In this document: in pieces, positions 31,347-48,300 of the stretch
How positions within the stretch are numbered: position 1 is the stretch's first letter
Layout of the letters: each line of letters opens with the position of its first letter
Assembly: GCA_009885845.1 (NCBI GenBank)
Contig: VFJW01000133.1
Location: 1 to 64,000 of the forward strand
Direction: 5' to 3'
Length of the DNA stretch: 64,000 bases
Source of the DNA: Geobacter sp.
Lineage (GTDB): Bacteria; Desulfobacterota; Desulfuromonadia; Geobacterales; Pseudopelobacteraceae
The notes under the pieces: model-generated
Database searches by the model: none
Told to the model about the DNA's origin: nothing
Seen by the model: the letters and a program-made list of their open reading frames with translations, nothing else
Program-made: the position numbers and the translations under genes

Positions 31347-31349
31347 CGT

Positions 31350-32276
31350 ATGAAATTCCCAAAACAGGTAAAAATAGTAGAGGTTGGTCCCCGGGACGGG
31401 TTGCAGAATGAAGCGGCCATTGTTCCGACCGAAGTAAAAATTGAATTGATCAACCGGCTCTCGGCAACCGGCCTCAGCGCTATCGAAGCAACCAGTTTTG
31501 TCTCGCCAAAATGGGTGCCGCAGATGGCGGACAACGCCCAGGTAATGCTAGGCATCACACGTCGCCCAGGCGTCAGCTATCCGGTGCTGGTGCCGGGCAT
31601 GCAGGGTTTTGAGGCGGCAGTTGCGGCCGGTGCAGAGGAAATTGCCGTGTTCGGTGCGGCTTCTGAGGCGTTTTCGCAGCGTAACATCAACTGCTCGATT
31701 GCCGAAAGCCTCGAGCGATTCGCCCCGGTAATTGTTGCCGCCCGGCAGCGTAACATCAAGGTTCGCGGCTATGTGTCCTGCGTTCTGGGATGCCCGTATC
31801 AGGGTGATGTTGCTCCTGAAATCGTTGCTCAAGTCGCCCTGCGTCTGCTGGAGATGGGCTGTTATGAAATATCTCTGGGTGACACGATGGGGTTTGCCAC
31901 CCCTGCCAAAGCGCAGGCGATGGTGAGGAAAGTTATGGCAGTTGTACCGCGCTACCGTTTGGCGGTTCACTTCCACGATACCTACGGTCAGGCGTTGGCC
32001 AATATCCTGGCGGTTCTGGAGCTGGGCATTTCGACCGTGGACAGTTCTGTTGCCGGTCTTGGCGGGTGCCCCTATGCCAAAGGCGCGGCCGGAAATGTTG
32101 CCAGTGAGGATCTGCTCTGCATGTTGAACGGAATGGGTATCGAAACCGGTGTTGATCTGACCGGACTGGTCGCTGCCGGACTGTATATTTCCAGTTATCT
32201 TGGTCGGCCGTCCGGCTCCAAGGTTGCACGCGCCCTCGGGCCTAAAATTGAACAGGAATCGAAGCTGACTGTTTGA
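31350..32276 (+). CDS. liuE: Hydroxymethylglutaryl-CoA lyase
   Basis: 308 residues, TIM-barrel lyase splitting HMG-CoA into acetoacetate and acetyl-CoA. Seen: [12 protein letters not shown] at the start (metal-binding Asp and catalytic Arg), HFHDTYGQ (two His metal ligands), and [14 protein letters not shown] with the catalytic Cys and the metal-binding Asn. It follows liuD by three bases. The next enzyme for acetoacetate (CoA transferase) is not in the window. Confidence 0.94.
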
Positions 32277-32313
32277 ATCTATATTAAATATAAAATAGAA
32301 GGAGATTACACCG

Positions 32314-33441
32314 ATGACCGAATACGATTACTGGAAGATTTTTCCCCGCATGCCGAAAAAAATTACCATTGGCGACATAACGGTACGAGACGGTTTTCAG
32401 CACGAGGAGAAATTTGTCTCTACCCAGGCCAAGATTTATTACCTTGAAGAGTTGATTTTTGCAGGTTGCCGCAATATTGAGGTGACAAACCTTGGAAATC
32501 CGTCCTCCATGCCCCAGTTCCGTGATGCCGAAATTCTCCTGGCTCACTTGCGAAGTGATGATTTCAGAAAAAGATGTGCAAAACGTGGCATTAATTATGA
32601 CGACATCTGCCTGACGGCCATCACGATTCGCGAAACAGCCGTAGATCGGGCCATAGAGCTTTACCGGAAAGGGGTTGGCCCCGATCGTCTGCTGATGATG
32701 GTTTCCACCGAGGAACGGCACCATTTTGCCAATTCCGGTTGCACCCTTCCACAGTACTGGAAAGAAGCTGAACGGAGCATCCAGAAGTGCAATGACGCCG
32801 GAATGAAGATGTGCGGCACTGTCAGCACCATCTGGGGTAGCCCGATCGGCGGAGCAACCTGTATGAAGGATGCTGTTGAATTTACCAGACGCTGGCTTGA
32901 TATCGGCGCCCATGACGTGGAACATGCCGACCACGATGGCAGCGCTTCGGCCCCGGATGTTTATCGTTATTTTTCGATGGTTCTTGACGAACTGCCGGAT
33001 ACGAATCTGCATATTGCGCACTTCCATGAAACCAAGCGGGTGGCTTCAGCCTCGGTGCTGGCCGCATTGCAGGCCGGAATTACTCACTTTGAGGCCACTC
33101 TGGGTGGTTTGGGCGGTCAGCCGGCCAACTTCCTTGATGATTGCCCGGTCAAGGGAACCGGCGAATACTATTACAAGGACCCTCGCTATGTCGGTTTGGT
33201 AACGCTTGAGGACACCCTTGTGCAGATCGACGAAATGGGAATTGAGCATGGCTGGGATGTAGACCGGGTGCTTAAGCTTGGGGCGCAGCTCGAAAAAACA
33301 TTTGGCAGACGGCTTCGTTCGGAAGCGATTATGAACGGCAGAACTGCCAAAGAAGGGCACCTGGAGTACGCTCGACCGGGATTGGCTGAATTGAAAAAGA
33401 AACTGGGTGAAGCGCCTGATCAAAAATTGCCGGTAAATTGA
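32314..33441 (+). CDS. HMG-CoA-lyase-like protein of unknown reaction
   Basis: 375 residues, HMGL-like TIM barrel. The Asp/Arg pair (GDITVRDGFQHEEK) and the metal-binding HFHETK are kept, but the place of the catalytic Cys reads GLGGQPANFLDD, with Gln for Cys and no GN metal ligand. It therefore should not be an HMG-CoA lyase; it may be a condensing or lyase enzyme on a related acid. It follows liuE by 37 bases with AAGGAG upstream, so it is probably co-expressed with the leucine pathway. I do not recognise a characterised relative. Confidence 0.75.
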   Translation: MTEYDYWKIFPRMPKKITIGDITVRDGFQHEEKFVSTQAKIYYLEELIFAGCRNIEVTNLGNPSSMPQFRDAEILLAHLRSDDFRKRCAKRGINYDDICLTAITIRETAVDRAIELYRKGVGPDRLLMMVSTEERHHFANSGCTLPQYWKEAERSIQKCNDAGMKMCGTVSTIWGSPIGGATCMKDAVEFTRRWLDIGAHDVEHADHDGSASAPDVYRYFSMVLDELPDTNLHIAHFHETKRVASASVLAALQAGITHFEATLGGLGGQPANFLDDCPVKGTGEYYYKDPRYVGLVTLEDTLVQIDEMGIEHGWDVDRVLKLGAQLEKTFGRRLRSEAIMNGRTAKEGHLEYARPGLAELKKKLGEAPDQKLPVN

Positions 33442-33473
33442 TAGGTACAAACAACAAATCAAAAAACACATTT

Positions 33474-33556
33474 ACATGGATGGACAAGATGAACAGGATG
33501 TATTAAAAGATAGTTCTATTTTTGATTCTATCCCTGTATATCCTGTCCATCCATGT
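33474..33556. repeat. REP-like imperfect long inverted repeat
   Basis: ACATGGATGGACA (33474-33486) is exactly complementary to TGTCCATCCATGT (33544-33556). The match continues with interruptions through GATnnACAGG for about 27 bases per arm, and an inner GATAG/CTATC pair closes the loop. The 'ggatggacaagatgaacaggat' style sequence resembles dispersed intergenic repeats in Geobacter-like genomes, which is memory, not a search. It lies just upstream of an AMP-ligase gene. Confidence 0.7.
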
Positions 33557-33579
33557 TCAATTAAATTTTGGAGGTTTTC

Positions 33580-35238
33580 ATGTCGCAGCAACTCACTCAC
33601 ACCGTTGGCTCACTTCTGGACGACATGGCTCGTCGCTATCCTGACAACGAAGCGCTGGTCTATCCTGAGCGGGGTATCCGATACAGCTATAAACAGTTCA
33701 ACGACCTTTGCCGTCAGATCGCCAAAGGCCTTCTCCGTCTCGGCATCAAAAAAGGGGATAACATCGCCATCTGGGCCTACAACGTTCCCGAATGGGTACT
33801 GCTGCAGTTCGCTTCAGCCAAAATCGGCGCCATCCTCGTCACCGTCAATACCAGCTACAAATCAGCCGAGCTCGAATATATCCTGGAACAATCTGATTCC
33901 ACCTCACTCTTCATGGTCGGCTCCTTCAAAGACACCAATTATGTCGAAACCTTAAACAGTGTCGTTCCCGAATTGGCGACATCTACGCCGGGCACCCTTA
34001 ACACCGCCAAGCTGCCATTCCTGAAGAACGTCATCTACATCGGCGGGGAAACCCCTGCCGGCATGATCAACTTCGACAGTATCGTCAAAATGGGTGAGGA
34101 AATACCGGACGAATGCCTTAACGCCATAGAAGCCTCTCTCGACTGTCACGAAACCATCAACATGCAGTACACCTCCGGCACCACCGGCTTCCCCAAAGGG
34201 GTCATGCTGACCCACTACAACATTGTCAACAACGGTTTTAACATTGGCGAGTGTATGAAACTCACCGAAAAAGACCGTCTTTGCATCCCGGTCCCCTTCT
34301 TCCATTGTTTTGGCTGTGTTCTCGGTGTCATGGCCTGCGTCACCCACGGGACCACCATGGTCCCCGTAGAAATATTCGATCCGCTCAAAGTTCTGCAGAC
34401 TGTGGAAAAAGAAAAATGCACCGCAGTCCACGGCGTTCCCACCATGTTCATCGCTGAACTTGAACACCCCGACTTTAAAAAATTCGATCTTTCCACTCTA
34501 CGCACCGGCATCATGGCCGGTTCCAACTGCCCCATCGAAGTCATGAAAAAAGTCAATAGCGACATGCATGCCTCAGAAATCACCATTGCCTACGGCCAGA
34601 CTGAATCCTCCCCCGTCATTACCCAGACTCGTACCGATGACGCCCTGGAATTGCGCGTCGCCACCGTCGGAAGATCACTACCCGACGTCGAAACCAAAAT
34701 AGTTGACATCGAAACCGGCGCAACTCTCCCTCCTGGCAAACAGGGAGAACTCTGCACCCGTGGCTACCACGTCATGAAAGGGTACTATAAAATGCCCGAA
34801 GAAACCGCCCGTGCCATCGATCCGGATAACTGGCTGCATACCGGCGACCTCGCTATCATGGATGAAAACGGCTACTGCAAGATCACCGGACGCATTAAGA
34901 ACATGATCATTCGTGGCGGCGAAAATATATACCCGCGGGAAATCGAAGAATTCCTCTATACCCACCCAAAAGTCTCCGACATTCAGGTGTACGGCGTTCC
35001 GGACAAGAAATACGGCGAACAGGTCATGGCTGCCGTCATCCTTAAAAAGGGGATGACGATGACCGAAGATGAAGTTCGTGACTTCTGCCGGGACAAAATA
35101 GCAAACTACAAGATTCCGAAATACGTCACCTTCGTCGACGGCTATCCGATGACCGCTTCCGGCAAGATCCAGAAATTCAAAATGAGAGAAATGGCTATCA
35201 AGGAACTGCAGTTGGAGGATATGGGCGAAACGGCGTGA
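33580..35238 (+). CDS. AMP-forming acyl-CoA synthetase, short/medium-chain type
   Basis: 552 residues, ANL family. A3 YTSGTTGFPKGVML at about residue 190, A5 AYGQTESSPV, A7-A8 LHTGDLAIMDENGYCKITGR, and the C-terminal TASGKIQKFK with the catalytic Lys. The start is the ATG at 33580 with GGAGG before it; a TTG 12 bases earlier overlaps that site. Codon choice is strikingly biased to C in the third position (ATC, GTC, ACC, AAC), unlike the genes on either side. The stop overlaps the start of the MFS gene (GTGA). Substrate unknown; could activate the acid entering the pathway. Confidence 0.88.
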   Translation: MSQQLTHTVGSLLDDMARRYPDNEALVYPERGIRYSYKQFNDLCRQIAKGLLRLGIKKGDNIAIWAYNVPEWVLLQFASAKIGAILVTVNTSYKSAELEYILEQSDSTSLFMVGSFKDTNYVETLNSVVPELATSTPGTLNTAKLPFLKNVIYIGGETPAGMINFDSIVKMGEEIPDECLNAIEASLDCHETINMQYTSGTTGFPKGVMLTHYNIVNNGFNIGECMKLTEKDRLCIPVPFFHCFGCVLGVMACVTHGTTMVPVEIFDPLKVLQTVEKEKCTAVHGVPTMFIAELEHPDFKKFDLSTLRTGIMAGSNCPIEVMKKVNSDMHASEITIAYGQTESSPVITQTRTDDALELRVATVGRSLPDVETKIVDIETGATLPPGKQGELCTRGYHVMKGYYKMPEETARAIDPDNWLHTGDLAIMDENGYCKITGRIKNMIIRGGENIYPREIEEFLYTHPKVSDIQVYGVPDKKYGEQVMAAVILKKGMTMTEDEVRDFCRDKIANYKIPKYVTFVDGYPMTASGKIQKFKMREMAIKELQLEDMGETA

Positions 35239-36539
35239 ATCCCTACAGCCAATCGCGCTTCCTGCTGGCGCGCTGGTCAATTTACGCAATTCTGGTTGCC
35301 GTCTATATGCTTGCCTTTTTTCACCGCATGGCTCCAGCGGTGATTTCATCCGATCTGATGAAGGCCTTCAGTACTTCCGGTGCGGCCCTGGGGTCACTGG
35401 CGGCGATGTATTTCTACATCTACACCGCCATGCAGATTCCTGCCGGAGTGCTGGCTGATACTCTGGGAGCGCGGGTTACTGTCACTGCCGGTTCTCTGAT
35501 TGCCGGCTGCGGTTCGATCATATTTGGTCTGGCCGGGACATTTGCCGGTGCTTCAGTGGGCCGCGCATTGGTCGGTCTGGGTGTTTCAGTGGTATTTGTA
35601 GGACTTTTCAAGAGTAACAGCGTCTGGTTCAGCGAGCGTAACTTCGGTATGATCAGCGGCCTGACTGTACTGTTGGGAAATGTAGGGGCAATGGCTTCCG
35701 CAGGCCCCTTAGCTGTGGTACTGAAAAGCTATTCCTGGCGATCAGTATTCATGGCTCTGGGGGGGATTACCCTGCTGCTTGCGCTGCTGACTGCTCTGTT
35801 TGTGCGCAACCGTCCTGAGGATATGGGTTTCCCCTCCATGCGTCAAATGGAGGGGAAGACAAGCCATTCTTCCAGTAACCATAGTTGGTGGGATGACCTA
35901 AAGAGTGTTGTCGGAACCAGATCTGCCTGGCCAGGACTGTGGGTTGGTCTAGGGATGGTCGGCAGTATGCTCGCTTTTGTAGGGTTGTGGGCGATTCCGT
36001 TTCTGCGTGACGTTCACGGTCTTGCTCGCTCCGCTGCCTCAGCCTATACAACCTCAGCTCTGGCTGGATTTGCAGTCGGTTCAATGCTGGGCGGTTGGTT
36101 TTCTGATCGTATCGGGCGACGCAAGCCGATTATTCTGGGAGGTACGCTTCTTTACGCCACCGCCTGTGTCGGCCTGGCCTATCTGCCCTGGAATCCGGGC
36201 CCGATCGGTATTGTCCAGTTTGCCGTTCTTGGCCTCAGCTCAGGCGGTTTTATAGTGATTTTTGCCAACGCCAAGGAAGTTGTTGCGCCGGCATTATCCG
36301 GCATGGCGGTCGGATTGGTGAATACGGGGTTATTCTTCGGAGCTGCCGTGATGCAGCCACTGTTCGGGTGGGCGATGGATTTCAGCTGGAATGGCCGGAT
36401 AGAAAATGGATTACGGGTATATGCACCTTCAGATTACCACACCGGATTTTTGATCATGCTTGCCTTTTCGGTTATTGCTGTTGCTGGAGCCAGTAGAATC
36501 AAGGAAACGAACTGCCGCAATATAACAATTGAAAGTTGA
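35235..36539 (+). CDS. Major facilitator superfamily transporter (GTG start)
   Basis: 434 residues with about 12 membrane segments. Loop motifs LADTLGARVTV (between segments 2 and 3) and GGWFSDRIGRRKP (after segment 8) are MFS motif A variants. A hydrophilic central loop (about residues 200-225) separates the halves. It overlaps the upstream ligase by four bases, so transport and CoA activation of one compound are probably coupled. Substrate unknown; an organic acid is the natural guess. Confidence 0.87.
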   Translation: MNPYSQSRFLLARWSIYAILVAVYMLAFFHRMAPAVISSDLMKAFSTSGAALGSLAAMYFYIYTAMQIPAGVLADTLGARVTVTAGSLIAGCGSIIFGLAGTFAGASVGRALVGLGVSVVFVGLFKSNSVWFSERNFGMISGLTVLLGNVGAMASAGPLAVVLKSYSWRSVFMALGGITLLLALLTALFVRNRPEDMGFPSMRQMEGKTSHSSSNHSWWDDLKSVVGTRSAWPGLWVGLGMVGSMLAFVGLWAIPFLRDVHGLARSAASAYTTSALAGFAVGSMLGGWFSDRIGRRKPIILGGTLLYATACVGLAYLPWNPGPIGIVQFAVLGLSSGGFIVIFANAKEVVAPALSGMAVGLVNTGLFFGAAVMQPLFGWAMDFSWNGRIENGLRVYAPSDYHTGFLIMLAFSVIAVAGASRIKETNCRNITIES

Positions 36540-36563
36540 GTTGAAGATGTTAAGGAGTTTGAG

Positions 36564-37370
36564 ATGGCCGATGTTTACAGCACCATAGCAGAAGCAGAAA
36601 CCGAAGTTCAGGAACGTCTGGCGAGTGTGTTGGAACTCCGGGCGGCGGATCTTCAGCAGCGTGATATGCTCAAAACATATCTTGCCGATATTGAACTTCC
36701 GAAAGACGCGGAACTTCTTGATATAGGATGCGGAACCGGGGCGGTAAGCAGGGAACTGGCAAAGCATCCATCTGCTGGCCGGGTCATCGGGATTGATCCG
36801 TCCCCCGTATTTTTGTCAACCGCACGTAAGCTTGCAGTTGATTATACCAATCTTAGTTTTGTGGAAGGAGATGGTCGTTTGCTTCCCTTTGAAGGAGAAA
36901 GTTTTGACGCGGTCTTTTTTCACACAACGCTCAGCCACGTTCCCCGTTCTGAAGATGCCCTGAGTGAGGCCTGTCGTGTCCTTCGCCCTGGCGGTGTCCT
37001 GGCTGTTTTTGAAGGAAACTACACGTCGACGACTCTGGCCAATGGTGACTTTGATCCTCTGCAGGCCTGTGCTGATGCTGCCATGGCTGCTCTTGTACAT
37101 GACCGCTGGCTGATTCAGCGTCTGCCGGTTCTTGTCCGTGCTGCAGGGTTCTCAATTGTGAAGCAGCGCAGTCTGGGCATTGTTGAAACGAATGAACCCG
37201 ACTACATGCTTACCATTGCTGATCGTGGTGCAAATGTACTCGCTGCAAGTGGCAGAATCGGGGCAGATCTGGCCCAGGCTCTTAAAAACGAAGCCCGCCG
37301 GCGTGTGGCCTCCGGGTGCTTTTTTGGTTCAATTGCCTACGGAAGTCTTGTTGCAATCAAACAAATGTAG
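36564..37370 (+). CDS. Class I SAM-dependent methyltransferase
   Basis: 268 residues. Motif I LLDIGCGTGAVSREL (about 51-65), Asp in IGIDPSP (motif II), GDGRLLPFEGESFDAVF (motif III/post) and RVLRPGGVLAVFEGN define a UbiE/BioC-like methyltransferase. TTAAGGAG precedes the ATG. It lies between an MFS gene and a thioesterase. Substrate not evident. Confidence 0.85.
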   Translation: MADVYSTIAEAETEVQERLASVLELRAADLQQRDMLKTYLADIELPKDAELLDIGCGTGAVSRELAKHPSAGRVIGIDPSPVFLSTARKLAVDYTNLSFVEGDGRLLPFEGESFDAVFFHTTLSHVPRSEDALSEACRVLRPGGVLAVFEGNYTSTTLANGDFDPLQACADAAMAALVHDRWLIQRLPVLVRAAGFSIVKQRSLGIVETNEPDYMLTIADRGANVLAASGRIGADLAQALKNEARRRVASGCFFGSIAYGSLVAIKQM

Positions 37371-37428
37371 AAGGGACAGAATGAAATTGTTTTCATGTGT
37401 ACCCCGATTGCCATGAAGAGGTGTTTGC

Positions 37429-37863
37429 ATGCCCCGTTTTACCCGTTCTTATAAAGTCCGTTTTGAAGATTGTGATTCAGCCGGAATAGTCTTTTACCCC
37501 AACTATTTTCTGATGCTCAACCGTTTGATTGAAGATTGGTTTGCTGATGCTCTGGGGGTTCCTTGGGGCATTTTGCATCATGAACGGAAACTCGGAGTCC
37601 CGACCGTCAGCATGCAGGTAGCTTTCAAAAATGCAAGCCGGCTCGATGAAGTACTGGAATGGTCTCTGGAAGTCCTAAAACTAGGGACGAGATCATTCAC
37701 ACTGGGTGTCAGTGCAAGTTGTAAAGGGGAGGAACGTCTCACAATCGAAACAGTTCTTGTGTCTGCAAGTCTTGCCGGCGGTGGAGTCGCTGCCGGTGTT
37801 ATGCCGCCCGATATCCGGGCCGGAATAACACGTTTTCTTGCTGATTCAGCTGCATCAGGGTGA
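37429..37863 (+). CDS. 4-hydroxybenzoyl-CoA-thioesterase-like acyl-CoA thioesterase
   Basis: 144 residues, hotdog fold. The segment RFEDCDSAGIVFYPNYF (about residues 10-26) carries the conserved Asp of the Pseudomonas 4-hydroxybenzoyl-CoA thioesterase subfamily. It hydrolyses acyl- or aroyl-CoA esters. Small cytosolic protein; starts at ATG 37429 after GAGG. Together with the upstream ligases it could balance CoA ester pools; the actual substrate is unknown. Confidence 0.86.
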   Translation: MPRFTRSYKVRFEDCDSAGIVFYPNYFLMLNRLIEDWFADALGVPWGILHHERKLGVPTVSMQVAFKNASRLDEVLEWSLEVLKLGTRSFTLGVSASCKGEERLTIETVLVSASLAGGGVAAGVMPPDIRAGITRFLADSAASG

Positions 37864-37886: not shown

Positions 37887-39470
37887 ATGGAAGCTTATCA
37901 GAATCATAAGATAAAAGAAGTCGCCCTAATAGACCGACTGAAGTTTGAAGCCCTTCTTTCCGACTTGTCGGCGGCCTTTATAAATGTGCCTGTCAGCGAG
38001 GTTGACGGCAAAATTGAGCAGGGGCTGCAAAGAATTGTTGAATTCCTTGGAGTTGACCGGAGCACGGTTTGGAAAGTCAGTCCCGATGGCGAGATGCTCT
38101 GTACTCACTCTTTTGCTTTGCCGGGAATACAACCTCCTCCGGCTGTTATTGCGAATCTTGTCCCGGTGTGGGAATCAATGGTTCTTCATGGCGAAATATT
38201 CGAAATATCTGATGTTGACGAACTTCCTGAATCTCAGTGGAGAGAAAAAGAGTACTGCCGTGATCAGGGTGGCATCAAGTCGATAATGTTTATTCCCGCA
38301 AGCGTTGGAGGAGTCGTTGGCGGGTTTATTACATTTGTTTCCTACAGTGTTAAACAGGCCTGGCCAGAAGAACTTATCAACCGCCTCCGATTATTGTGGG
38401 ATGTTTTTACCAATGCTGTGGAACGTAAGCGCGCCGACCAAAAGATTCAAAAAGCTCTCGTTGAAATCGAGATACTGAAAGATCGTCTGGAAGCAGAAAA
38501 TCTTTATTTGAAGGATCAGATCGATATTGAGTACAAACATGAAGAGATTATAGGCAGGAGTGATGTTATTCAGAGAGTCCTGCTGCGGGTGGAACAGGTC
38601 GCGGCAACCGACTCCACTGTCCTTATCCTGGGTGAAACCGGTACAGGAAAGGAGCTTATTGCCAGAGCGATTCACCGTTCCGGTTCGCGCAGGAACCGTG
38701 CAATGATAAAAGTGAATTGTGCGGCTCTGCCGGCTGCTCTTATTGAGTCTGAACTGTTCGGACGTGAAAAAGGAGCATACACGGGAGCTGTTTCAAGGCA
38801 GATCGGCCGTTTTGAAGCTGCCAATGGATCAACAATTTTTCTGGATGAGATCGGTGATCTGCCTCTTGAATTACAATCAAAGCTGCTGCGAGTCATTCAA
38901 GAGGGGCAGTTTGAAAGGTTGGGTAATCCCCATCCGGTTGATGTTGATGTCCGTGTCATCGCGGCAACCAATAGAAATCTTGCACTTGCAGTCAAAGAAG
39001 GCCGATTTAGAGAGGATCTGTATTACCGTTTGAATGTGTTTCCGATTTCTGTACCTCCGCTGCGAGACCGGCGTGAAGATATTCCGCTGCTTGTCTGGGC
39101 AATGGTTGAGGAATTCAGCAGGAGTTTCGATAAGAAAATTGAACGGATTCCCAAAAAAAGTATGGATGCCATGGAGCTGTACCAGTGGCCGGGTAATATC
39201 AGGGAATTGCGCAACGTTGTGGAAAGGGCCATGATTCTCAGTAGTGGGCCAAGCCTGATTGTTGATGTGCCGGATATCTCCGCCGCCGTATCTGCACCGT
39301 CACTTTTTATCTCTGATATGGAGCGAAATCATATTATTTCAGTTCTGGATCGGACTCGATGGCGTGTGCGCGGCACACATGGCGCCGCTGAGATCCTTGG
39401 ACTCAAGCCGACAACGCTGGAGTCGAAAATGAAAAAACTTTGCATCAGGAAAAGCGATAGTACCTCCTAA
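37887..39470 (+). CDS. Sigma-54-dependent activator with GAF sensor domain
   Basis: 527 residues. N-terminal GAF domain (about 20-175), a helical linker (about 178-215), AAA+ domain with Walker A GETGTGKE (249-256), the sigma-54 contact loop GAYTGA (Tyr in place of the more common Phe), Walker B IFLDEIGDL, arginine finger region RFREDLYYRL, and a Fis-type helix-turn-helix at the C-terminus (GAAEILGLKPTTLESKMKK). The GAF domain probably senses a small molecule. Two inverted-repeat motifs and a -24/-12 promoter lie directly downstream in front of the next operon, so that operon is the likely target. Confidence 0.93.
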   Translation: MEAYQNHKIKEVALIDRLKFEALLSDLSAAFINVPVSEVDGKIEQGLQRIVEFLGVDRSTVWKVSPDGEMLCTHSFALPGIQPPPAVIANLVPVWESMVLHGEIFEISDVDELPESQWREKEYCRDQGGIKSIMFIPASVGGVVGGFITFVSYSVKQAWPEELINRLRLLWDVFTNAVERKRADQKIQKALVEIEILKDRLEAENLYLKDQIDIEYKHEEIIGRSDVIQRVLLRVEQVAATDSTVLILGETGTGKELIARAIHRSGSRRNRAMIKVNCAALPAALIESELFGREKGAYTGAVSRQIGRFEAANGSTIFLDEIGDLPLELQSKLLRVIQEGQFERLGNPHPVDVDVRVIAATNRNLALAVKEGRFREDLYYRLNVFPISVPPLRDRREDIPLLVWAMVEEFSRSFDKKIERIPKKSMDAMELYQWPGNIRELRNVVERAMILSSGPSLIVDVPDISAAVSAPSLFISDMERNHIISVLDRTRWRVRGTHGAAEILGLKPTTLESKMKKLCIRKSDSTS

Positions 39471-39482
39471 ATAAAGTATATT

Positions 39483-39496
39483 CTACGAAATATCGT
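39483..39496 (+). promoter_or_regulatory. Upstream activator motif, copy 1
   Basis: CTACGAAATATCGT, an inverted repeat (ACGA-AATA-TCGT) starting 12 bases after the stop of the sigma-54 activator gene. The same 14 bases recur at 39605. Candidate enhancer site for that activator. Confidence 0.65.
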
Positions 39497-39604
39497 GCTT
39501 TATGATTTTGCCACTGTCCCGCATCTCTTCTCCCTATTCCCGTTCGTTTTTCAGTCAGTTAGGCCGGTTGCACCCTTAGTGTCGTGTGTGGCGGCAATGA
39601 TGAG

Positions 39605-39620
39605 CTACGAAATATCGTAG
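39605..39620 (+). promoter_or_regulatory. Upstream activator motif, copy 2
   Basis: CTACGAAATATCGTAG: perfect six-base arms CTACGA/TCGTAG around AATA. It ends 94 bases before the -24 element at 39715, a usual enhancer distance. Identical to copy 1 over 14 bases. Confidence 0.7.
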
Positions 39621-39714
39621 TTTGTTTCAATTACATAGGAAAGAAAAAAACGTTTTAAAAATAAATATGATAAATACCGGATAGTTAAGAGCTATTATCT
39701 GGGTAATGTATATA

Positions 39715-39730
39715 TGGCATGTTACATGCA
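39715..39730 (+). promoter_or_regulatory. Sigma-54 (-24/-12) promoter
   Basis: TGGCATGTTACATGCA matches the consensus TGGCAC-N5-TTGCW at 14 of 16 counted positions, with GG and GC exactly ten bases apart. It lies 137 bases upstream of the acyl-CoA dehydrogenase start. With the two upstream motifs and the sigma-54 activator gene next door, it is the likely promoter of the 39.9-48.3 kb operon. Confidence 0.75.
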
Positions 39731-39867
39731 AAACAGTGTAGCATAATATATTTGCTTTTCCGCAGCATGCAGCCATACAAATGAATTAGTACTTGATCAT
39801 CAAGAGGTTAATAAGATATTTATGGTCAAAAGTAGTTTTAAAAGAGCAAGTGTTCGGGAGCGGCACC

Positions 39868-41628
39868 ATGGAAGATAAGCTGGCGCAAGGTGGCGAATTT
39901 CTGCTAACCGGTACTGCTATGAAGAGTTTTTTTTCGCCGGAGGACTTCTCTGTTGAGCAGCGTCAGTTTGCTGATACCACAGATGAATTCATAAAAAAGG
40001 AGGTACTGCCTGATCTTGACAGAATGGAACAGCAGGATTTTGAACTTGTCGTCGCCAAATTACGCAGGTGTGCCGAGTTGGGACTTTTCCTTGTCGACGT
40101 GCCGGAGGATTTCGGCGGTATGGAGCTTGATAAGGTTACCAGTATGCTGCTGGCGGAAAAAATTGCTCCGGGGGGTTCTTTTTCCATAACGTACGGAGGC
40201 CAGACAGGCATTGGGCTTCTTCCCCTCGTCTACTACGGAACAAACGATCAAAAGCGGCGTTATCTCGATAAACTTACCTCCGGGGCCTGGATTGCGGCAT
40301 ATGCGTTGACCGAGCCGAATAGCGGCAGTGATGCTCTGAGTGCCCGGACGACGGCGGTTCTGACGCCTGACGGCCGGCATTATGTCCTGAACGGAGTTAA
40401 ACAGTTCATTACCAATGCCGGCTTCGCAGATCTTTTCACTGTTTTTGCCAAGATTGACGGAACACACTTTTCTGCCTTTCTTGTCGAGAAAGGGTTTGCC
40501 GGGTTTTCTGTTGGTGAAGAGGAACATAAAATGGGGTTGAAAGGCTCCTCTACTGCCCAGATATTTCTCGATCACGTCAAGGTACCGGTGGACAATCTTC
40601 TCGGGGAACCGGGCAAGGGTCATAAGATCGCCTTCAATGTTCTTAATATCGGACGCCTGAAAGTTGCAGCAACTGCCGGTGGCATGGCCAAGGGCGCTTT
40701 TGCCGAGGCGGCTGTCTACGTGACTGAACGAAAACAGTTTGGCCGAATGATTGGTGACTTCGGTGCCATCAAGGAAAAACTGGCGGATATGTCGGCAGCC
40801 ATCTTTACCTCGGATTCCGTCGTGTACCGTGTAGCTGGAATGCTTGACACCAGAATTGCTTCTCTGGACCGGAACGGAACCGATTATTATGAGCGGTATC
40901 AGAAGGCAATCGAGGAATATGCCATTGAATGTGCCATAGCAAAGGTCTTCTGTACCGATATGCTCGCGGGAGTAGTCGACGAGGTTGTGCAAATTCATGG
41001 TGGGTATGGCTATATCTGCGATTATGCTGCCGAGCGCTATTACCGTGATGAGAGGATCCAGCGGATTTTCGAAGGGACCAATGAGATCAACAGAATACTT
41101 ATCCCGACATTGTTGCTTCGCAGGTCTGAAAGCGGGATATTTAGTCTCCACGAACATGTAGAGGCGGCCCGGGTTGAAATCCGGTATGGAGAAGCCTCCT
41201 GTATCTTTGATGAATTGTTTCCTCTGGAGTTCAGGCTGTTGGCCAACCTGAAAAATCTTTTTCTCACTCTGCTTGGAATCTCCGAACCATGCAAGGATGT
41301 TCAGGAAATCATGCTGGCGGTGGCTGATATGAGTATCAGCATTTTTGCACTGGAAAGCGTTCTCCTGAGAGGGAAAAAAGGTTTTACCGCCGCCAGCTCA
41401 CGCAGAAAGGAACTTCTCTCTGCAGTGCTTAAGGTGGTCTCCTTTGAACAGGCATCCCGGTTTAATCTGGCGGCCGGTCGTTGTTCCGCTTACCTCATGA
41501 AAGGAGAAGCGATTATTGAACAGCACATGATTGCAGCCAGATTAACCGCCTATCCGGTTGAAGGGCTGCTTGACGCCAAACAGCTGCTGGCAGAAACGGC
41601 AAAGGAATCGGGAAAATATAATGTATAA
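39868..41628 (+). CDS. Acyl-CoA dehydrogenase, long (VLCAD-like) type
   Basis: 586 residues, clearly longer than the usual 380-400, with an extra C-terminal helical domain of about 170 residues as in VLCAD-like enzymes. FAD site ALTEPNSGSDA and the catalytic Glu in RIFEGTNEINR are present. The ATG at 39868 has GGGAG seven bases upstream; the open frame extends 25 codons but lacks family sequence. First gene of the putative sigma-54 operon with an acyl-CoA synthetase and an ABC importer. Confidence 0.9.
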   Translation: MEDKLAQGGEFLLTGTAMKSFFSPEDFSVEQRQFADTTDEFIKKEVLPDLDRMEQQDFELVVAKLRRCAELGLFLVDVPEDFGGMELDKVTSMLLAEKIAPGGSFSITYGGQTGIGLLPLVYYGTNDQKRRYLDKLTSGAWIAAYALTEPNSGSDALSARTTAVLTPDGRHYVLNGVKQFITNAGFADLFTVFAKIDGTHFSAFLVEKGFAGFSVGEEEHKMGLKGSSTAQIFLDHVKVPVDNLLGEPGKGHKIAFNVLNIGRLKVAATAGGMAKGAFAEAAVYVTERKQFGRMIGDFGAIKEKLADMSAAIFTSDSVVYRVAGMLDTRIASLDRNGTDYYERYQKAIEEYAIECAIAKVFCTDMLAGVVDEVVQIHGGYGYICDYAAERYYRDERIQRIFEGTNEINRILIPTLLLRRSESGIFSLHEHVEAARVEIRYGEASCIFDELFPLEFRLLANLKNLFLTLLGISEPCKDVQEIMLAVADMSISIFALESVLLRGKKGFTAASSRRKELLSAVLKVVSFEQASRFNLAAGRCSAYLMKGEAIIEQHMIAARLTAYPVEGLLDAKQLLAETAKESGKYNV

Positions 41629-41659: not shown

Positions 41660-43507
41660 ATGCATCAGACCGAGTTTGTACCGATCGACTTTGCGCCGGC
41701 ATTAGTCAACGTCGAAGAGACGCCGGATGGTGGTTATATTCTCAGTTCGCCTATGCCGCTTGAACCATACGAGGACAGTTTGGGAGTGCTGCTGCGCTAC
41801 TGGGCGGAAGAAACTCCCGACAGAATATTCATCGGCGAACGAAATCCTTCAGGAGAATGGAATCTTCTGACGTACCGTGAAACGGCCTGTCGGGCTGATT
41901 CAATAGCCCAGGCACTGATTGACCGGAAACTTGGACCGGAGCGACCGGTCATGATTCTATCCGGCAATTCCATCAGCCATGCTCTCCTCATGCTTGGATG
42001 TTTTATTGCGGGAGTTCCGGTGGCTCCTGTTTCGGTCGCCTATTCGCTTTTGAGTGATGACTTCTTCAAACTGAAGGCAATTTTTTCGGAAGTCAAACCG
42101 GCACTGATCTTCACTGAAAACGGTACGATGTTTTCGCGTGTCCTTCATGCTCTGGACCTCGCCGGAGTAGAGGTTGTCATAAAGGAGGGGCAGGTCGATA
42201 ACGTTGCAGCATCTTCTTTTGCGAATCTGCTTGAAACCCCTGCCACCAGCGAGGTGGAGCAGGCTTTTGCGAAAGTCAACTCCGGGACAATTGCAAAAAT
42301 TCTGTTTTCCTCCGGTTCCACCGGACAACCGAAAGGGATTCTCAACACACACGGGATGCTCTGCGCAAATCAGCAGATGTTGGCGCAATTATGGCCGTTT
42401 ACGAAGGTTACTCCACCGGTGCTTGTAGACTGGCTCCCCTGGAATCACACCTTTGGAGGGAATCACAACTTCAATCTGGTTCTCAAGAGCGGCGGAACCC
42501 TGTATATAGATGATGGGAAACCGGTGCCTGCATTGGTATTGAAAACCGTGAACAATCTTGCGGATATTTCACCGACAATATATTTTAATGTCCCGTCCGG
42601 TTTTGCCATGCTGCTTCCTCACCTTGAGCGAGATGAAGAACTGCGGAACAATTTTTTCAAAAAGCTGCAACTCATTTTTTATGCCGGAGCTGCGTTGCCG
42701 CAAGATCTGTGGCAGAGGCTGGAAGCTGTTGCCATTCAGGCTACCGGACGCAAAGTGCCGATGACATCGTCCTGGGGTTCAACCGAGACCTCTCCGCTTG
42801 CAACATCGGCTCACTTTCCTATTGACAGAGCCGGAGTAATCGGGCTTCCCTGCCCGGGAGTCACTTTGAAGATGGTTCCGAGTGATGAAAAGTTCGAATT
42901 ACGGGTCAAAGGACCACATGTTACTCCCGGTTACCTGAACCGTCCTGATCTGACCAGAGATGCATTTGATGCCGATGGATTCTACAAGATCGGTGATGCC
43001 GGTATGTTTGCCGATCCGACTGATCCGAGAAAGGGCATTTCATTTGCCGGGAGAATTGCAGAGGATTACAAGCTCACGACCGGAACCTGGGTACATGTCG
43101 GAAAAACCAGGCTGGAAGTATTGACCGCGGCGGCCCCGCTTCTTCAGGATGCGCTTGTAACAGGTCACGATCGGGAATTTGTCGGGATACTTGCCTGGCC
43201 GAACATCGCCGGATGCAGAGAACTCTGTCGTGACAGCGAGGCCGCCCTGTCAATTGAAAAGCTTGTAATGAGCAAGGAAGTGGTTGATTATCTGCGTACG
43301 GCGATGTCAACATACAACGGGACGCACACGGGATCGGCAACCCGGGTCTGCCGGATTATGTTGATGACCGAGCCGCCTTCGATTGATGCCAACGAAATTA
43401 CCGATAAAGGGTATATTAATCAGAGAGCTGCTCTGGAACGGCGGGATAAACTTGTTGCCCGGTTATACTTGGCGACCCCGGGACCGGATGTAATTATTGT
43501 TTCCTGA
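41660..43507 (+). CDS. AMP-forming ligase, feruloyl-CoA-synthetase-like
   Basis: 615 residues from the ATG at 41660, preceded by AGGAGG. An earlier ATG at 41621 overlaps the preceding stop by eight bases. A3 motif LFSSGSTGQPKGIL at about residue 210; A5 SSWGSTETSPLA. The overall arrangement (HTFGGNHNFN, GAALPQDLWQRLE) resembles feruloyl-CoA synthetases, so an aromatic or other bulky carboxylic acid is a fair guess. The C-terminal domain lacks the standard SGKIQ-like Lys motif and ends differently, as in that subfamily. Next to livH, consistent with import then activation. Confidence 0.85.
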   Translation: MHQTEFVPIDFAPALVNVEETPDGGYILSSPMPLEPYEDSLGVLLRYWAEETPDRIFIGERNPSGEWNLLTYRETACRADSIAQALIDRKLGPERPVMILSGNSISHALLMLGCFIAGVPVAPVSVAYSLLSDDFFKLKAIFSEVKPALIFTENGTMFSRVLHALDLAGVEVVIKEGQVDNVAASSFANLLETPATSEVEQAFAKVNSGTIAKILFSSGSTGQPKGILNTHGMLCANQQMLAQLWPFTKVTPPVLVDWLPWNHTFGGNHNFNLVLKSGGTLYIDDGKPVPALVLKTVNNLADISPTIYFNVPSGFAMLLPHLERDEELRNNFFKKLQLIFYAGAALPQDLWQRLEAVAIQATGRKVPMTSSWGSTETSPLATSAHFPIDRAGVIGLPCPGVTLKMVPSDEKFELRVKGPHVTPGYLNRPDLTRDAFDADGFYKIGDAGMFADPTDPRKGISFAGRIAEDYKLTTGTWVHVGKTRLEVLTAAAPLLQDALVTGHDREFVGILAWPNIAGCRELCRDSEAALSIEKLVMSKEVVDYLRTAMSTYNGTHTGSATRVCRIMLMTEPPSIDANEITDKGYINQRAALERRDKLVARLYLATPGPDVIIVS

Positions 43508-43525: not shown

Positions 43526-44563
43526 ATGGATTTTCAGACACTTCTGATCCTTGCCCAGGACGCAGTTACCAACAGCGCGATTTATGCACTGTTGGCACTG
43601 TCGTTGATACTTGTATTCGGAGTAACGCGAGTGATTTTTGTCGCACAGGGGGAGTTTGTGTCCTATGGAGCACTGACTCTTGCGAGCCTGCAGATGGGCG
43701 TTATGCCCGGTACAGTGTGGCTGCTGCTGATGCTGGCAGGTATTGCTGCCGTAATGGAAACCTTCAGACTGCTTACGTCCGGAGCGGGACAGGAATTGCC
43801 CAGATCCCTCGCTACCGTGCTTGTGCCGCCACTCGTCATTGCCGGTCTGGTAAAAGTGTGCACTCCGTTGCACCTCCCGCTTGGCTGGCAGGTGCTTCTG
43901 ACGATGTTGATTGTCATGCCGATGGGGCCGCTCCTCTATCGAGTTGCATTCCGACCGCTTGCGGATGCGACCGTTCTGGTGCTTCTTATTGCAGCAGTGG
44001 CGGTTCACTTTGTTCTGGTCGGACTGGGCCTTCTATTTTTTGGAGCAGAAGGGGTACGCACTCCACCGTTCTCAGATGCCCAGTTCCAGTTCGGTTTCCT
44101 TTCTGTCTCCGGACAGAGTCTCTGGGTCTATGTGGCCAGTTCGGTTTTTATTGCACTTCTGGCCTGGTTTTTTAACAAAACGTTGTATGGAAAAGCATTA
44201 CGTGCGGTCGCATTCAACCGAAACGGAGCGCGTCTGGTCGGCATCAGCCCTCATCTCGCCGGTACCTTTTCGTTTGCACTGGCGTCAGCAATCGGTTGTC
44301 TGTCAGGGGTTCTTATCGGTCCGGTCACAACGCTCTATTATGATTCCGGGTTTCTGATCGGTCTTAAAGGTTTTGTCGGTGCGATTGTCGGTGGTATGGC
44401 CAGTTATCCGTTAGCCGCATTCGGTGCCCTGATAGTAGGTTTCTCGGAATCGTTCTCGTCTTTCTGGCTGAGCGGTTATAAGGATGTTGTCGTGTTTACG
44501 ATGATTATCCCGGTCCTGCTGTGGCGCTCACTATCCACTGTTCACTATGAGGAAGAGGAATGA
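43526..44563 (+). CDS. livH: ABC transporter permease, LivH type
   Basis: 345 residues, longer than the usual 290-300 because of extra sequence between the first membrane segments (about residues 75-130). LivH features: [29 protein letters not shown] at the start (split), and the coupling loop [29 protein letters not shown] lies upstream. The stop overlaps the following gene by four bases. Confidence 0.9.
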
Positions 44564-46311
44564 TTCGCCGATTCGGTTATATGCTGTTTCTGCTGCTGTT
44601 GCTGATCATTCCGATGTTCCCTTCATTCTACCTTACCATGGGAAGTTACATCGGACTTTACAGTATTGTCGCAATAGGTCTGGTTCTGCTGACCGGGGTC
44701 GCCGGATTGACATCGTTTGGGCAGGCTGCGTTTATGGGACTCGGGGCCTATACGTCAGCGGTGCTTACCACGCATCTTGCCTGGTCTCCCTGGCTGGCTC
44801 TTTTTGTCGCAATAGCGTTGACGGTGACGGTTGCATTTATTCTCGGAGCGATTACATTGCGAATGGGTGGCCATTATCTCCCGTTGGCCACGATAGCCTG
44901 GGGAATCAGCCTCTATTTTCTGTTCGGCACCATCCCGATTCTGGGAGGTTCAAACGGGATTTCCGATATTCAGGCTCTGCGGCTGTTTGGCATGGAGCTG
45001 ACGGATGAAAAAATCTTTTACTACCTTATCTGGGGTGTCTGTCTCGTTGCGTTATGGATATCGACAAATCTGCTCGACTCCCGCGAGGGGCGTGCGATCA
45101 GGGCACTCAAGGGCGGGGTTTCAATGGTGGAAGCGTTCGGAGCCAGTGGCCTCCGGCTGAAAAACGTTGTATTCATCTATTCGGCTGTTCTTGCCTGCCT
45201 GGCCGGATGGCTCTATGCTCATATGCAGCGATTTGTGAACCCGTCGCCGTTCGGGCTTAACCAGGGAATCGAATTCCTCTTTATGATAACCATCGGAGGG
45301 GCTTTCAGCTTCTGGGGGGCTATAACCGGCGCCACGGTCATTACTCTCCTCAAAACGGTTCTGCAGGGGATTCTGCCGAAACTGATCAGTCAATCCGGGA
45401 ATTTTGAGATAATTGTTTTCGGAATTATGATAGTTGTGGTGCTCCAGTGGATGAGGGGAGGTATCTGGGCCTTCGTAGAACGGCTGCTGCCGCAGAAAGC
45501 GGCGCGGCCTGTCGCCAGATCATCCGATCTTGACATGCGAATTCAGCCGATGAAGGGTACTCCTCTGCTCAAGGTGACTGATGTAACAAAAGCGTATGGT
45601 GGACTGATAGCGGTAAAAGGAATGAATTTTGATATCTCATCAGGTGAGATTGTCGGCTTGATCGGGCCTAATGGAGCCGGCAAATCAACCATGTTTAACC
45701 TGATCAGCGGTGAGGTGCCTCACACGGCCGGAGACATAACTTTCGGTAATCACATTATCAGTGGCCTGCGTCCTCCCAGGATCGCAAAGCTTGGACTCAG
45801 CCGCACCTTTCAACATGTCCGCCTGATTCCAGGGATGTCAACGATCGAAAATGTCATGATCGGCGCTTATCTCCGTACGCACGATGGAATCTTTTCTGCC
45901 GGATTGAGCCTGAACCGGGCATCGGATGAACGTGTGCGGGCAGAAGCAGCCCGGCAGCTTCGAAGGGTAGGGCTTGAAGGCAGTATGTTCGATCCAGCCG
46001 GCAGTCTGTCTCTCGGCAATCAGCGTGTGGTTGAAATAGCCCGGGCTCTCTGTGCTGATCCTCTTTTACTCCTTCTTGACGAGCCGGCAGCCGGCCTGCG
46101 CCATCTCGAGAAGAAGGAATTGGCTAACCTGCTGTCAGATCTGAGAAAAGAAGGGTTAAGCGTCCTGATTGTCGAGCATGATATGGACTTTCTGATGAAT
46201 CTTGTTGACCGGTTTGTCGTTATGGAATTCGGCGAAAAGCTGGCTGAAGGGCTGCCGCAGGAAATCAGGTCAAATCCGGCGGTTCTTGAAGCGTATCTGG
46301 GAGGGGTATAA
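44560..46311 (+). CDS. Fused ABC permease-ATPase, LivM-LivG
   Basis: 583 residues in one frame. Residues 1 to about 315 form a LivM permease ([46 protein letters not shown]). A short basic linker (about 316-335) leads to a LivG ATPase with Walker [10 protein letters not shown], signature [15 protein letters not shown] and Walker [16 protein letters not shown]. The normally separate subunits are covalently joined, so the complex has a fixed LivM:LivG stoichiometry. It overlaps livH and livF at either end, indicating tight coupling. Similar fusions exist in other proteobacteria. Confidence 0.92.
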
Positions 46312-47057
46312 TGTCGGAACGACTTCTCACCGTGAACGACCTGAATGTCCGCTACGGAAAGGTTGAGGCACTCTACGGCGCATCCCTCAGCGTTGACCGC
46401 GGCACGATCGTCAGCGTTATCGGACCGAACGGTGCCGGAAAATCGACCCTGCTGAATGCTGTCATGGGTGTGCTTCCCTCGCGGGGAATAATTGAATTCT
46501 GCGGAAACAATATGGGGAACGTCAGTATTGAACGCCGGGTTGCACAAGGACTTTGCCTGGTTCCCGAAACACGGGAACTTTTTTCACAGATGTCAGTGGA
46601 AGACAATCTTGAACTCGGAGCGTTTACCCGTTACCGGCGGGGCGACAAAGGGATCAGGGCAACTCTGGATTCTGTATTCAAACTGTTCCCCCGTCTGGAA
46701 CAGCGGCGAAGCCAGATGGCAGGAAGTCTCTCCGGCGGTGAGCGACAGATGCTTGCTCTTGGTCGTGCCCTCATGTGCCAACCGACTCTGCTGATGCTTG
46801 ATGAGCCAAGTCTGGGGCTTGCGCCGCTGATAGTCAAAGAAATCCTGAATAATATTAGCAGCCTGCGTTCCACTGGTGTCAGCATTCTGCTGATCGAACA
46901 GAATGCGCGGGCGGCACTTCAGATATCTGATTACGGCTACGTCCTTGAAAACGGTGAAATTGCCCTTGAGGGTCCAAGCAGAGAACTGGCAAACAATCCG
47001 CGGGTTATCGAAAGTTACCTCGGGATTGGAGGGGTTGAGGCTAAGATTGAGTGTTGA
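46311..47057 (+). CDS. livF: ABC transporter ATPase LivF
   Basis: 248 residues. Walker [10 protein letters not shown] at about 38-46, signature LSGGERQMLALGRAL and Walker B LMLDEPSLGLAP. Shares one base with the upstream fusion gene. The final codons (IEC) and the stop lie within a seven-base tandem repeat, so the C-terminus could vary by repeat-number change. Confidence 0.92.
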   Translation: MSERLLTVNDLNVRYGKVEALYGASLSVDRGTIVSVIGPNGAGKSTLLNAVMGVLPSRGIIEFCGNNMGNVSIERRVAQGLCLVPETRELFSQMSVEDNLELGAFTRYRRGDKGIRATLDSVFKLFPRLEQRRSQMAGSLSGGERQMLALGRALMCQPTLLMLDEPSLGLAPLIVKEILNNISSLRSTGVSILLIEQNARAALQISDYGYVLENGEIALEGPSRELANNPRVIESYLGIGGVEAKIEC

Positions 47058-47088
47058 GTGTTGAGTGTTGAGTGTTGAGTGTTGAGTG
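47047..47088 (+). repeat. Heptanucleotide tandem repeat, six TTGAGTG units
   Basis: Six exact copies of TTGAGTG run from 47047 to 47088, spanning the livF stop (47055-47057) and half of the gap before livK. Unit number changes would alter the distance between livF and livK; the stop falls in the second unit so the LivF end is nearly insulated. Confidence 0.95.
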
Positions 47089-47142: not shown

Positions 47143-48300
47143 ATGAAACAGTTTGTGGCAGGTATCAGTATGTTTGCAGTTATGGCAATTGGTGCAGCAG
47201 CTCAGGCGGAAATCACGATAGGTGTCAACCTGTCCTCGACCGGACCGGCGGCTTCGCTCGGCATCGCTGAGAAGAATGCCATCTCGTTCGGCCCTTCGAC
47301 CATAGCCGGACAAAAAGTCCGCTATGTCATTTATGATGATGCCACCGATACCACGACCGCTGTTCAGAACATAAAGCGCCTGGTTTCGGAGGAGAAGGTC
47401 GACGTTCTGATCGGGCCCACGACATCACCCACGTCTGCGGCAGTGATTGAGGCGGTAGCAGCGTCAAAAACCCCTATGATCCAGCTTTCACCCGGCCCGG
47501 CTACTATCTCTGCCACCGACGAAAAACGCAAATGGATATTCAGTGCCCCTGCCAACACCACCATTTACGGGACCGCAATGATCAATCACATGGTCAAGAA
47601 AGGGGTAAAAACGGTTTCGGTAATTGCGGTGGATGACGCCTATGGAGAGGTCAGTACTGTGGCGTATAAAGCCCTTTCCGAGCCGAAAGGGATCAAAACG
47701 CTGACGATCGAAAAATACAAGCGTACCGACACCAGCGCCACTGCACAGGTATTGAAGGCAATGCAGGGAAATCCGGATGCAATTTTCATTGCATCATCCG
47801 GTACTCCGGCGGCTCTTCCTCACGTTGCCCTGATCGAGCGTGGCTACAAAGGGAAGATCTACCAGTCGGGCGGGGCAGCCAATGCTGAATTTCTCCGCAT
47901 CGGTGGAAAAGCGCTGGAGGGTTCGTTTATGCTTGCGCCACCGGTTGTTGTTGGAGAGCAGTTGCCTGATGGATATCCGACTAAGGTCGAAGCACTCAAA
48001 TTCATAAAAGCTTATGAGGCCAAATTCGGGCCTCGTTCCATGTTCGCTTCTCTCGCCTGGGATGCACTGAAAATTGTTGAAGCAGCAGTACCCAAGGCTC
48101 TGAAAAGCGGCCAGCCAGGTACGGAGAAGTTCCGGGCTGCCTTGCGTGATGCCATTGAAGGAACCAAGGGTCTTAAAGGTGCCGGTTCGGTATTTACGAT
48201 GTCTCCTACGGATCATTCGGGCGTAAACCAACTCGGCATGTCTCTCATGAAGGTTGAAAACGGCAAGTGGAAGCTGGAAGATCACGCCGAATTTAAATAG
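47143..48300 (+). CDS. livK: ABC transporter substrate-binding protein
   Basis: 385 residues with a signal peptide (MKQFVAGISMFAVMAIGAAAQA) and a type-I periplasmic binding fold (ITIGVNLSSTGPAASLG, YVIYDDATDTTTAVQNIKRLV, IGPTTSPTSAAV). GGGAGG precedes the ATG at 47143. It is the ligand-capturing part of the transporter encoded just upstream. It differs strongly from the LivK at 17292, suggesting a different ligand. Confidence 0.92.
   Translation: MKQFVAGISMFAVMAIGAAAQAEITIGVNLSSTGPAASLGIAEKNAISFGPSTIAGQKVRYVIYDDATDTTTAVQNIKRLVSEEKVDVLIGPTTSPTSAAVIEAVAASKTPMIQLSPGPATISATDEKRKWIFSAPANTTIYGTAMINHMVKKGVKTVSVIAVDDAYGEVSTVAYKALSEPKGIKTLTIEKYKRTDTSATAQVLKAMQGNPDAIFIASSGTPAALPHVALIERGYKGKIYQSGGAANAEFLRIGGKALEGSFMLAPPVVVGEQLPDGYPTKVEALKFIKAYEAKFGPRSMFASLAWDALKIVEAAVPKALKSGQPGTEKFRAALRDAIEGTKGLKGAGSVFTMSPTDHSGVNQLGMSLMKVENGKWKLEDHAEFK

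Follow-up and report, generated by a model that had tools for sequence, protein, structure and literature searches.

A probable local sigma-54 control module at an acyl-CoA dehydrogenase, ligase and Liv transporter operon of Geobacter sp., and the enhancer layout shared by relatives of its activator

By analyzing a 64,000-nucleotide stretch of Geobacter sp. DNA (the window), we found a locus that with high confidence represents a local sigma-54 control module, in which an activator, palindromic enhancer sites and a -24/-12 promoter would drive a six-gene operon under gating by the GAF domain of the activator. The initial annotation had proposed such a switch from the adjacent activator, the sites, the promoter and the acyl-CoA dehydrogenase/ligase/Liv operon, and it is now strongly supported by conservation and by covariation between activators and sites. 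Comparative evidence from sequences supports the pairing of the activator with its sites, the geometry of the sites and the promoter as probable features of the locus, while dimer binding, hexamer formation, DNA looping and GAF gating are suggested by analogy with known activators. The activator gene and the control elements are as follows.

37887–39470, + strand: sigma-54 enhancer-binding protein (GAF, AAA+, Fis-type helix-turn-helix [HTH]), defined by the open reading frame (ORF), Pfam and an AF2 model
39464–39479, + strand: putative decayed enhancer site 1, CTCCTAAATAAAGTAT, over the activator stop codon and 19 bp upstream of site 2, assigned by comparison
39483–39498, + strand: putative enhancer site 2, CTACGAAATATCGTGC, conserved in orthologues
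39605–39620, + strand: putative enhancer site 3, CTACGAAATATCGTAG, with 7/8 palindromic pairs, 122 bp after site 2, conserved in orthologues
39715–39730, + strand: predicted -24/-12 promoter, TGGCATGTTACATGCA, whose first base lies 110 bp beyond that of site 3, an element conserved in relatives
39727–39735, + strand: -12 element and following bases, TGCAAAACA, an identical string in most orthologues

The ORF and the Pfam domains of the activator (GAF, E = 2.6e-5; Sigma54_activat PF00158, E = 1.2e-70; Fis-type HTH_8, E = 1.6e-7) agree with the gene end at 39470 and the GAF-AAA-Fis order given previously. The protein carries a sigma-54 interaction domain with a GAFTGA-type loop, read from the sequence as GAYTGA, and a C-terminal Fis-type HTH with the recognition helix KPTTLESKMKKL; the GAYTGA variant is listed among loops compatible with function in the accessible part of a published survey (PMC6615313). 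One rpoN gene and 18 matches to the AAA+ activator family were found in the genome of the window. The activator passed the cut-off of none of the listed NCBIfam activator models, AtoC and PrpR included: its top match, FhlA, scored 400 bits against a cut-off of 830, NifA 355 against 529, and NorR (PRK05022) 339 against 476. An AF2 model of residues 10–208 shows a GAF fold (mean pLDDT 86.5), and a fold search with it returned general GAF relatives only (such as phytochromes and 3k2n), from which no ligand could be inferred. The activator is also the last gene of a same-strand cluster (29337–37863) that encodes a biotin-dependent carboxylase subunit, two HMG-CoA-lyase-like proteins, an acyl-CoA ligase, an MFS transporter, a methyltransferase and a thioesterase, and that resembles leucine or acyl-CoA degradation.

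The target operon consists of six genes on the strand of the activator, separated by short gaps or overlapping, the last of which ends at 48300; its products would serve the uptake and degradation of an organic acid.

39868–41628, + strand: acyl-CoA dehydrogenase, FadE type (NF058590, 705 bits, cut-off 600; Pfam acyl-CoA dehydrogenase domains)
41660–43507, + strand: acyl-CoA synthetase, PRK12582 subfamily (NF009232, 859 bits, cut-off 777; an upstream ATG at 41621 is possible)
43526–44563, + strand: LivH-type permease (PF02653)
44560–46311, + strand: LivM-LivG fusion, permease and ATPase (PF02653, PF00005 and PF12399)
46311–47057, + strand: LivF-type ATPase (PF00005; best NCBIfam match LivF)
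47143–48300, + strand: Liv-type periplasmic binding protein (PF13458)

The same dehydrogenase-ligase-Liv order follows 86–88% identical activators in three same-genus relatives, with proteins 77–94% identical; the contig of relative L032 ends after the LivM-LivG fusion gene. Joining of the LivM permease and the LivG ATPase in one ORF was also seen in L032–L034. In the window, the heptamer TTGAGTG is present in 5–6 tandem copies at 47047–47087, a run that spans the livF stop codon and precedes the binding-protein gene.

Scanning of the window located CTACGAAATATCGT exactly at 39483–39496 and 39605–39618, and no further copy with up to two mismatches except the reverse reading of the 39605 copy. 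Few exact 14-mers of the window recur at a distance of 300 bp or less: apart from this one, there is just a pair in coding DNA, 69 bp apart, and a heptamer tandem. The initial annotation was thus right that two identical motifs stand here, both copies being exact, and incomplete in that the family layout comprises three sites, the first of which is lost in the window; the 39605 motif, described there as a full inverted repeat, does extend to CTACGAAATATCGTAG, with seven of the eight pairs palindromic.

The family layout emerged from a search for the activator in about 90 relatives, whose flanking sequences were fetched. Behind activators of 62–88% identity, two NNNCGAAATATCGNNN-type palindromes, spaced at exactly 19 bp, lie at the stop codon or cover it, a third follows 100–129 bp beyond this pair, and after it comes a promoter element with the consensus TGGCAYGN5TGCAAAACA, which starts 110–112 bp after the third site in 25/28 arrays and 120–122 bp after it, one helical turn more, in the remaining 3/28. 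Site 1 at 39464–39479 is recognizable only through this comparison and was missed initially. Where the window has CTCCTAAATAAAGTAT, relatives have CTCCGAAATATCGTAG-like sites, intact at the equivalent place in L033, L034, L045, L047, L049 and other orthologues; many relatives have TCC GAA ATA TCG TAG here, so that their activator ends in S-E-I-S, and the change of GAA to TAA is common to the window and L032. The comparison shows a presumably ancestral enhancer of three palindromes, the first two 19 bp apart, to which site 1 of the window would also have belonged. Because site 1 has decayed, the window retains two of the three sites and its enhancer may be weaker. Helical phasing of the distance between sites 2 and 3 was considered as well, and the signal was weak (R about 0.44–0.51 at 10–10.5 bp, with rows that are not independent).

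Several further observations concern the position of the pair. In L033, L034, L045, L047, L049, L060 and L061, the final codons of the activator are at the same time site 1 (S-E-I-S-stop; H-N-I-stop in the Phe-type L060), so that the DNA site seems to dictate the tail of the protein. In a more distant activator clade (47–51% identity; L062–L067, L126–L130 and L132) the 19-bp pair is kept, usually over the stop codon, and in L062–L067 it is followed by a TTGGCA-N-GG element, in which GG replaces GC at -12, and then by a short gene that by eye looks like an ABM-type monooxygenase domain. In L096 (Bradyrhizobium rifense, activator 52% identical), a 19-bp pair, CTCCGAAGTTTCGGAG and CTCCGAATTCTCGGAG, stands directly after the stop codon.

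The genes behind the arrays of sister activators bear on the inducing signal. In several of these arrays the genes that come first encode an acetyl-CoA hydrolase/transferase with DUF485, an SSF symporter and a thiolase; BcrAD/HGD-D with an acyl-CoA ligase; an acyl-CoA dehydrogenase; a thiolase with a CoA-transferase III; a TRAP binding protein; an AMP-binding ligase; or a 3-hydroxyacyl-CoA dehydrogenase. From these genes, the subfamily seems to control organic-acid/acyl-CoA modules. Induction by a ligand of the GAF domain, as predicted in the initial annotation, is plausible. No Cys or His is kept in the GAF domains of all relatives, which leaves a metal-centre sensor without support. Whether the ligand would be the substrate of the operon itself is a separate matter: across sister activators, the GAF domains have a median identity of 66.5% (minimum 51%), above the 62.7% of the HTH, though the targets range from CoA-transferase/SSF symporter/thiolase and BcrAD/HGD-D/acyl-CoA ligase sets to an acyl-CoA dehydrogenase and a TRAP transporter. 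As the GAF domain is about as conserved as the HTH among sisters whose targets differ, the same switch could sense a signal common to the subfamily, for instance one linked to CoA or to energy; this explanation genuinely competes with a substrate-specific ligand, and we tentatively keep it in view as a sizeable possibility. Against it, a few pocket residues can shift specificity and leave overall identity unaffected, and paralogous activators each adjoin their own module, which fits substrate-specific sensing.

The pairing of activators with their palindromes was evaluated from the recognition helix, which follows the pattern PTTL-x-y, with x-y being E-S in the window. In the loci compared first, CGA cores appeared to accompany y = Ser, and CAA or CCA cores y = Ala or Phe. 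This rule was already on record when 53 additional relatives and three activators from the window's own genome were scanned with palindrome finders blind to base 5. In the discovery set, Ser was found with G at palindrome position 5 in 24/24 loci and Ala/Phe without G in 6/6; in the later set, about half of whose loci gave no confident site pair and were left unscored, Ser occurred with G in 14 of 15 (one mixed) and Ala/Phe/Gly without G (A, C or T) in six of seven (one mixed). Taken together, helix residue y (Ser versus Ala/Phe/Gly) tracks base 5 (G versus not G) in 50/52 loci of a final site list that was merged by hand from three scans; L162 (TLQS), which the script did not parse and which is additional to this count, has G. 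A tree from which the HTH was left out implies at least nine changes of y, and all 7/7 phylogenetically independent pairs on well supported branches agree with the rule (sign test, p = 0.016). Since residue y and base 5 covary, the adjacent activator is very probably the protein that binds these palindromes.

The palindromes might instead serve as operators for another protein, a repressor or a different activator, with only the promoter belonging to sigma-54. They are generic in form, and with 18 AAA+ activator family matches in the genome another activator could in principle use them; however, base 5 tracks the recognition helix of the adjacent activator, and in many genomes the arrays lie on that activator's own stop codon, and we regard this explanation as very improbable. 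In the outer arm of the palindrome, a pyrimidine at base 2 accompanies 27/27 activators with an acidic x and is not found with 14/21 others, a pattern that is suggestive, with few independent pairs. An Asp or Glu at x would probably call for a pyrimidine at base 2, Asn, His or Tyr for G or A there, and Arg for G at base 3.

Targets that do not adjoin the activator gene follow the same layout. Four activators of the first set, with the helix N-S (L037, L039, L041 and L048), have no site downstream of the activator. A search for CGACGAAATATCGTCG, the palindrome carried by the nearest relatives of these activators, located it in all four genomes, each time on the contig of the activator, at about 21 kb (G082), at 24.6 kb (G057) or within 1 kb (G089 and G021). 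In 4/4 of these places there is a pair 19–20 bp apart, a third site 111–122 bp on and a GG-N10-GC promoter 112–113 bp after the third site. The CGACGAAATATCGTCG pattern came from relatives, so this search is more a check on the layout than on the link between residue and base. At L184 (G082:C21:61730), a lone CGACGAAATATCGTCT site precedes a TGGTATCAACTTTGCAAAACA promoter by 111 bp and may mark a second target of the activator with the N-S helix. In the genome of the window, the scan proposed in the initial annotation found no second CTACGA-N4-TCGTAG, and a whole-genome motif scan with up to three mismatches gave nothing above the control pattern (counts were below the control). The regulon therefore looks local, the motif occurring only at the dehydrogenase/ligase/Liv operon; the best outlier for a wider regulon, C84:7451, lies inside a seemingly hipA-like coding region and was rejected.

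For the promoter, a GG-N10-GC element had been placed at 39715; it is present there as TGGCATGTTACATGCA, the sole zero-mismatch match to TGGCAY-N6-TGCW in the window, and falls within the 100–250 bp downstream of enhancer sites expected for such a promoter. A match of this kind is weak evidence on its own, since with one mismatch the pattern occurs at chance level (20 found, 17.7 expected in the window), and scanning of 39300–39900 found no terminator-like site between activator and operon, so that read-through from the activator could contribute. What makes the promoter convincing is its conservation at a fixed distance in relatives, in whose loci a GG-N10-GC of comparable score occurs at about 3.4e-4 per base. 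It is accordingly highly unlikely that the match is a chance one and that the operon is transcribed by read-through or from a sigma-70 promoter: the element with TGCAAAACA recurs at a fixed distance in most relatives, and no sigma-70-type promoter was found in 39300–39900. From the sigma-54 element, the transcription start site is predicted near 39741. A short inverted repeat within the promoter, GCATGT-T-ACATGC, is not conserved in relatives and was therefore taken as chance. That the inverted repeats close the activator gene as RNA hairpins or terminators, as their place directly after or over the stop codon might suggest, is hardly credible, because 39300–39900 contains neither a terminator-like site nor an Rfam match and because arrays and promoter are kept even 21–25 kb from the activator gene.

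The sigma-54 module could then work as follows. Activator dimers would occupy the palindromes at 39483 and 39605, and in the ancestral state the one at 39464 too, and the bound dimers would help to assemble the AAA+ hexamer; by analogy with NorR, its six protomers would come from three dimers on as many sites. Through DNA looping, the hexamer would contact RNA polymerase-sigma54 at 39715–39730 and open the promoter, which would yield a six-gene mRNA for the acyl-CoA dehydrogenase, the acyl-CoA synthetase and the Liv-type transporter, and the GAF domain would gate activation by the hexamer.

AcoR, AtoC and PrpR are sigma-54 activators of organic-acid or acyl catabolism operons. The present activator resembles them in its predicted control of a small organic-acid/acyl catabolic operon and differs in not passing the AtoC and PrpR cut-offs. 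Its AAA+ and HTH are similar to those of E. coli FhlA, whereas its score is well under the FhlA cut-off (400 versus 830 bits); FhlA-type sites were dismissed, as by inspection the E. coli hyc-hyp intergenic region has no CGA-N4-TCG palindrome. The mechanism is of a known, NorR-like kind, and sigma-54 activators that adjoin their targets and have several upstream sites are well described. In E. coli, three essential enhancer sites upstream of the sigma-54 promoter scaffold a higher-order NorR oligomer, most likely a hexamer (PMC2941729). The GAF-AAA+-HTH order is shared with NorR, and relatives of the present activator have three sites, of which the window has two intact and one decayed; unlike NorR, the present activator has a different target and scores below the NorR model cut-off, and its layout places a pair of sites with 19-bp spacing by the 3' end of the activator gene itself, with the third far off. 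Comparative genomics of Clostridiales and Desulfovibrio sigma-54 regulons describes, in the accessible parts of the two studies, activators that adjoin their target operons, multiple sites 100–250 bp upstream of the promoter, and motif similarity that follows HTH similarity (PMC6615313, PMC4641369). The present locus is like these in its adjacent activator and operon and its several upstream sites; this activator group, the layout of a 19-bp pair plus one and the residue-base link are not described in those parts. Neither the subfamily nor its layout nor the residue-base link was found in the literature searched, which took in few subscription papers.

The main interest of the locus is the family-wide rule that it exposes. 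On balance we favour the view that the GAF activators of Geobacterales and relatives include a large subfamily of paralogues with a common enhancer layout and that its members are insulated from each other by a simple helix code, in which y would set base 5 (Ser-G; Ala/Phe-A) and x would probably set the outer arm, many members having site 1 inside the last codons of the activator (S-E-I-S-stop). The assignments link activators to organic-acid/acyl-CoA operons in Geobacter relatives, the regulation of which is little described in the literature searched, and the four predictions away from the activator gene indicate that the rule finds operons not adjoining their activator. If true, the helix code would make activator-operon pairs predictable from protein sequence alone, and a single predicted promoter would lead to a testable family-wide rule on how related sigma-54 activators in one cell keep their own targets.
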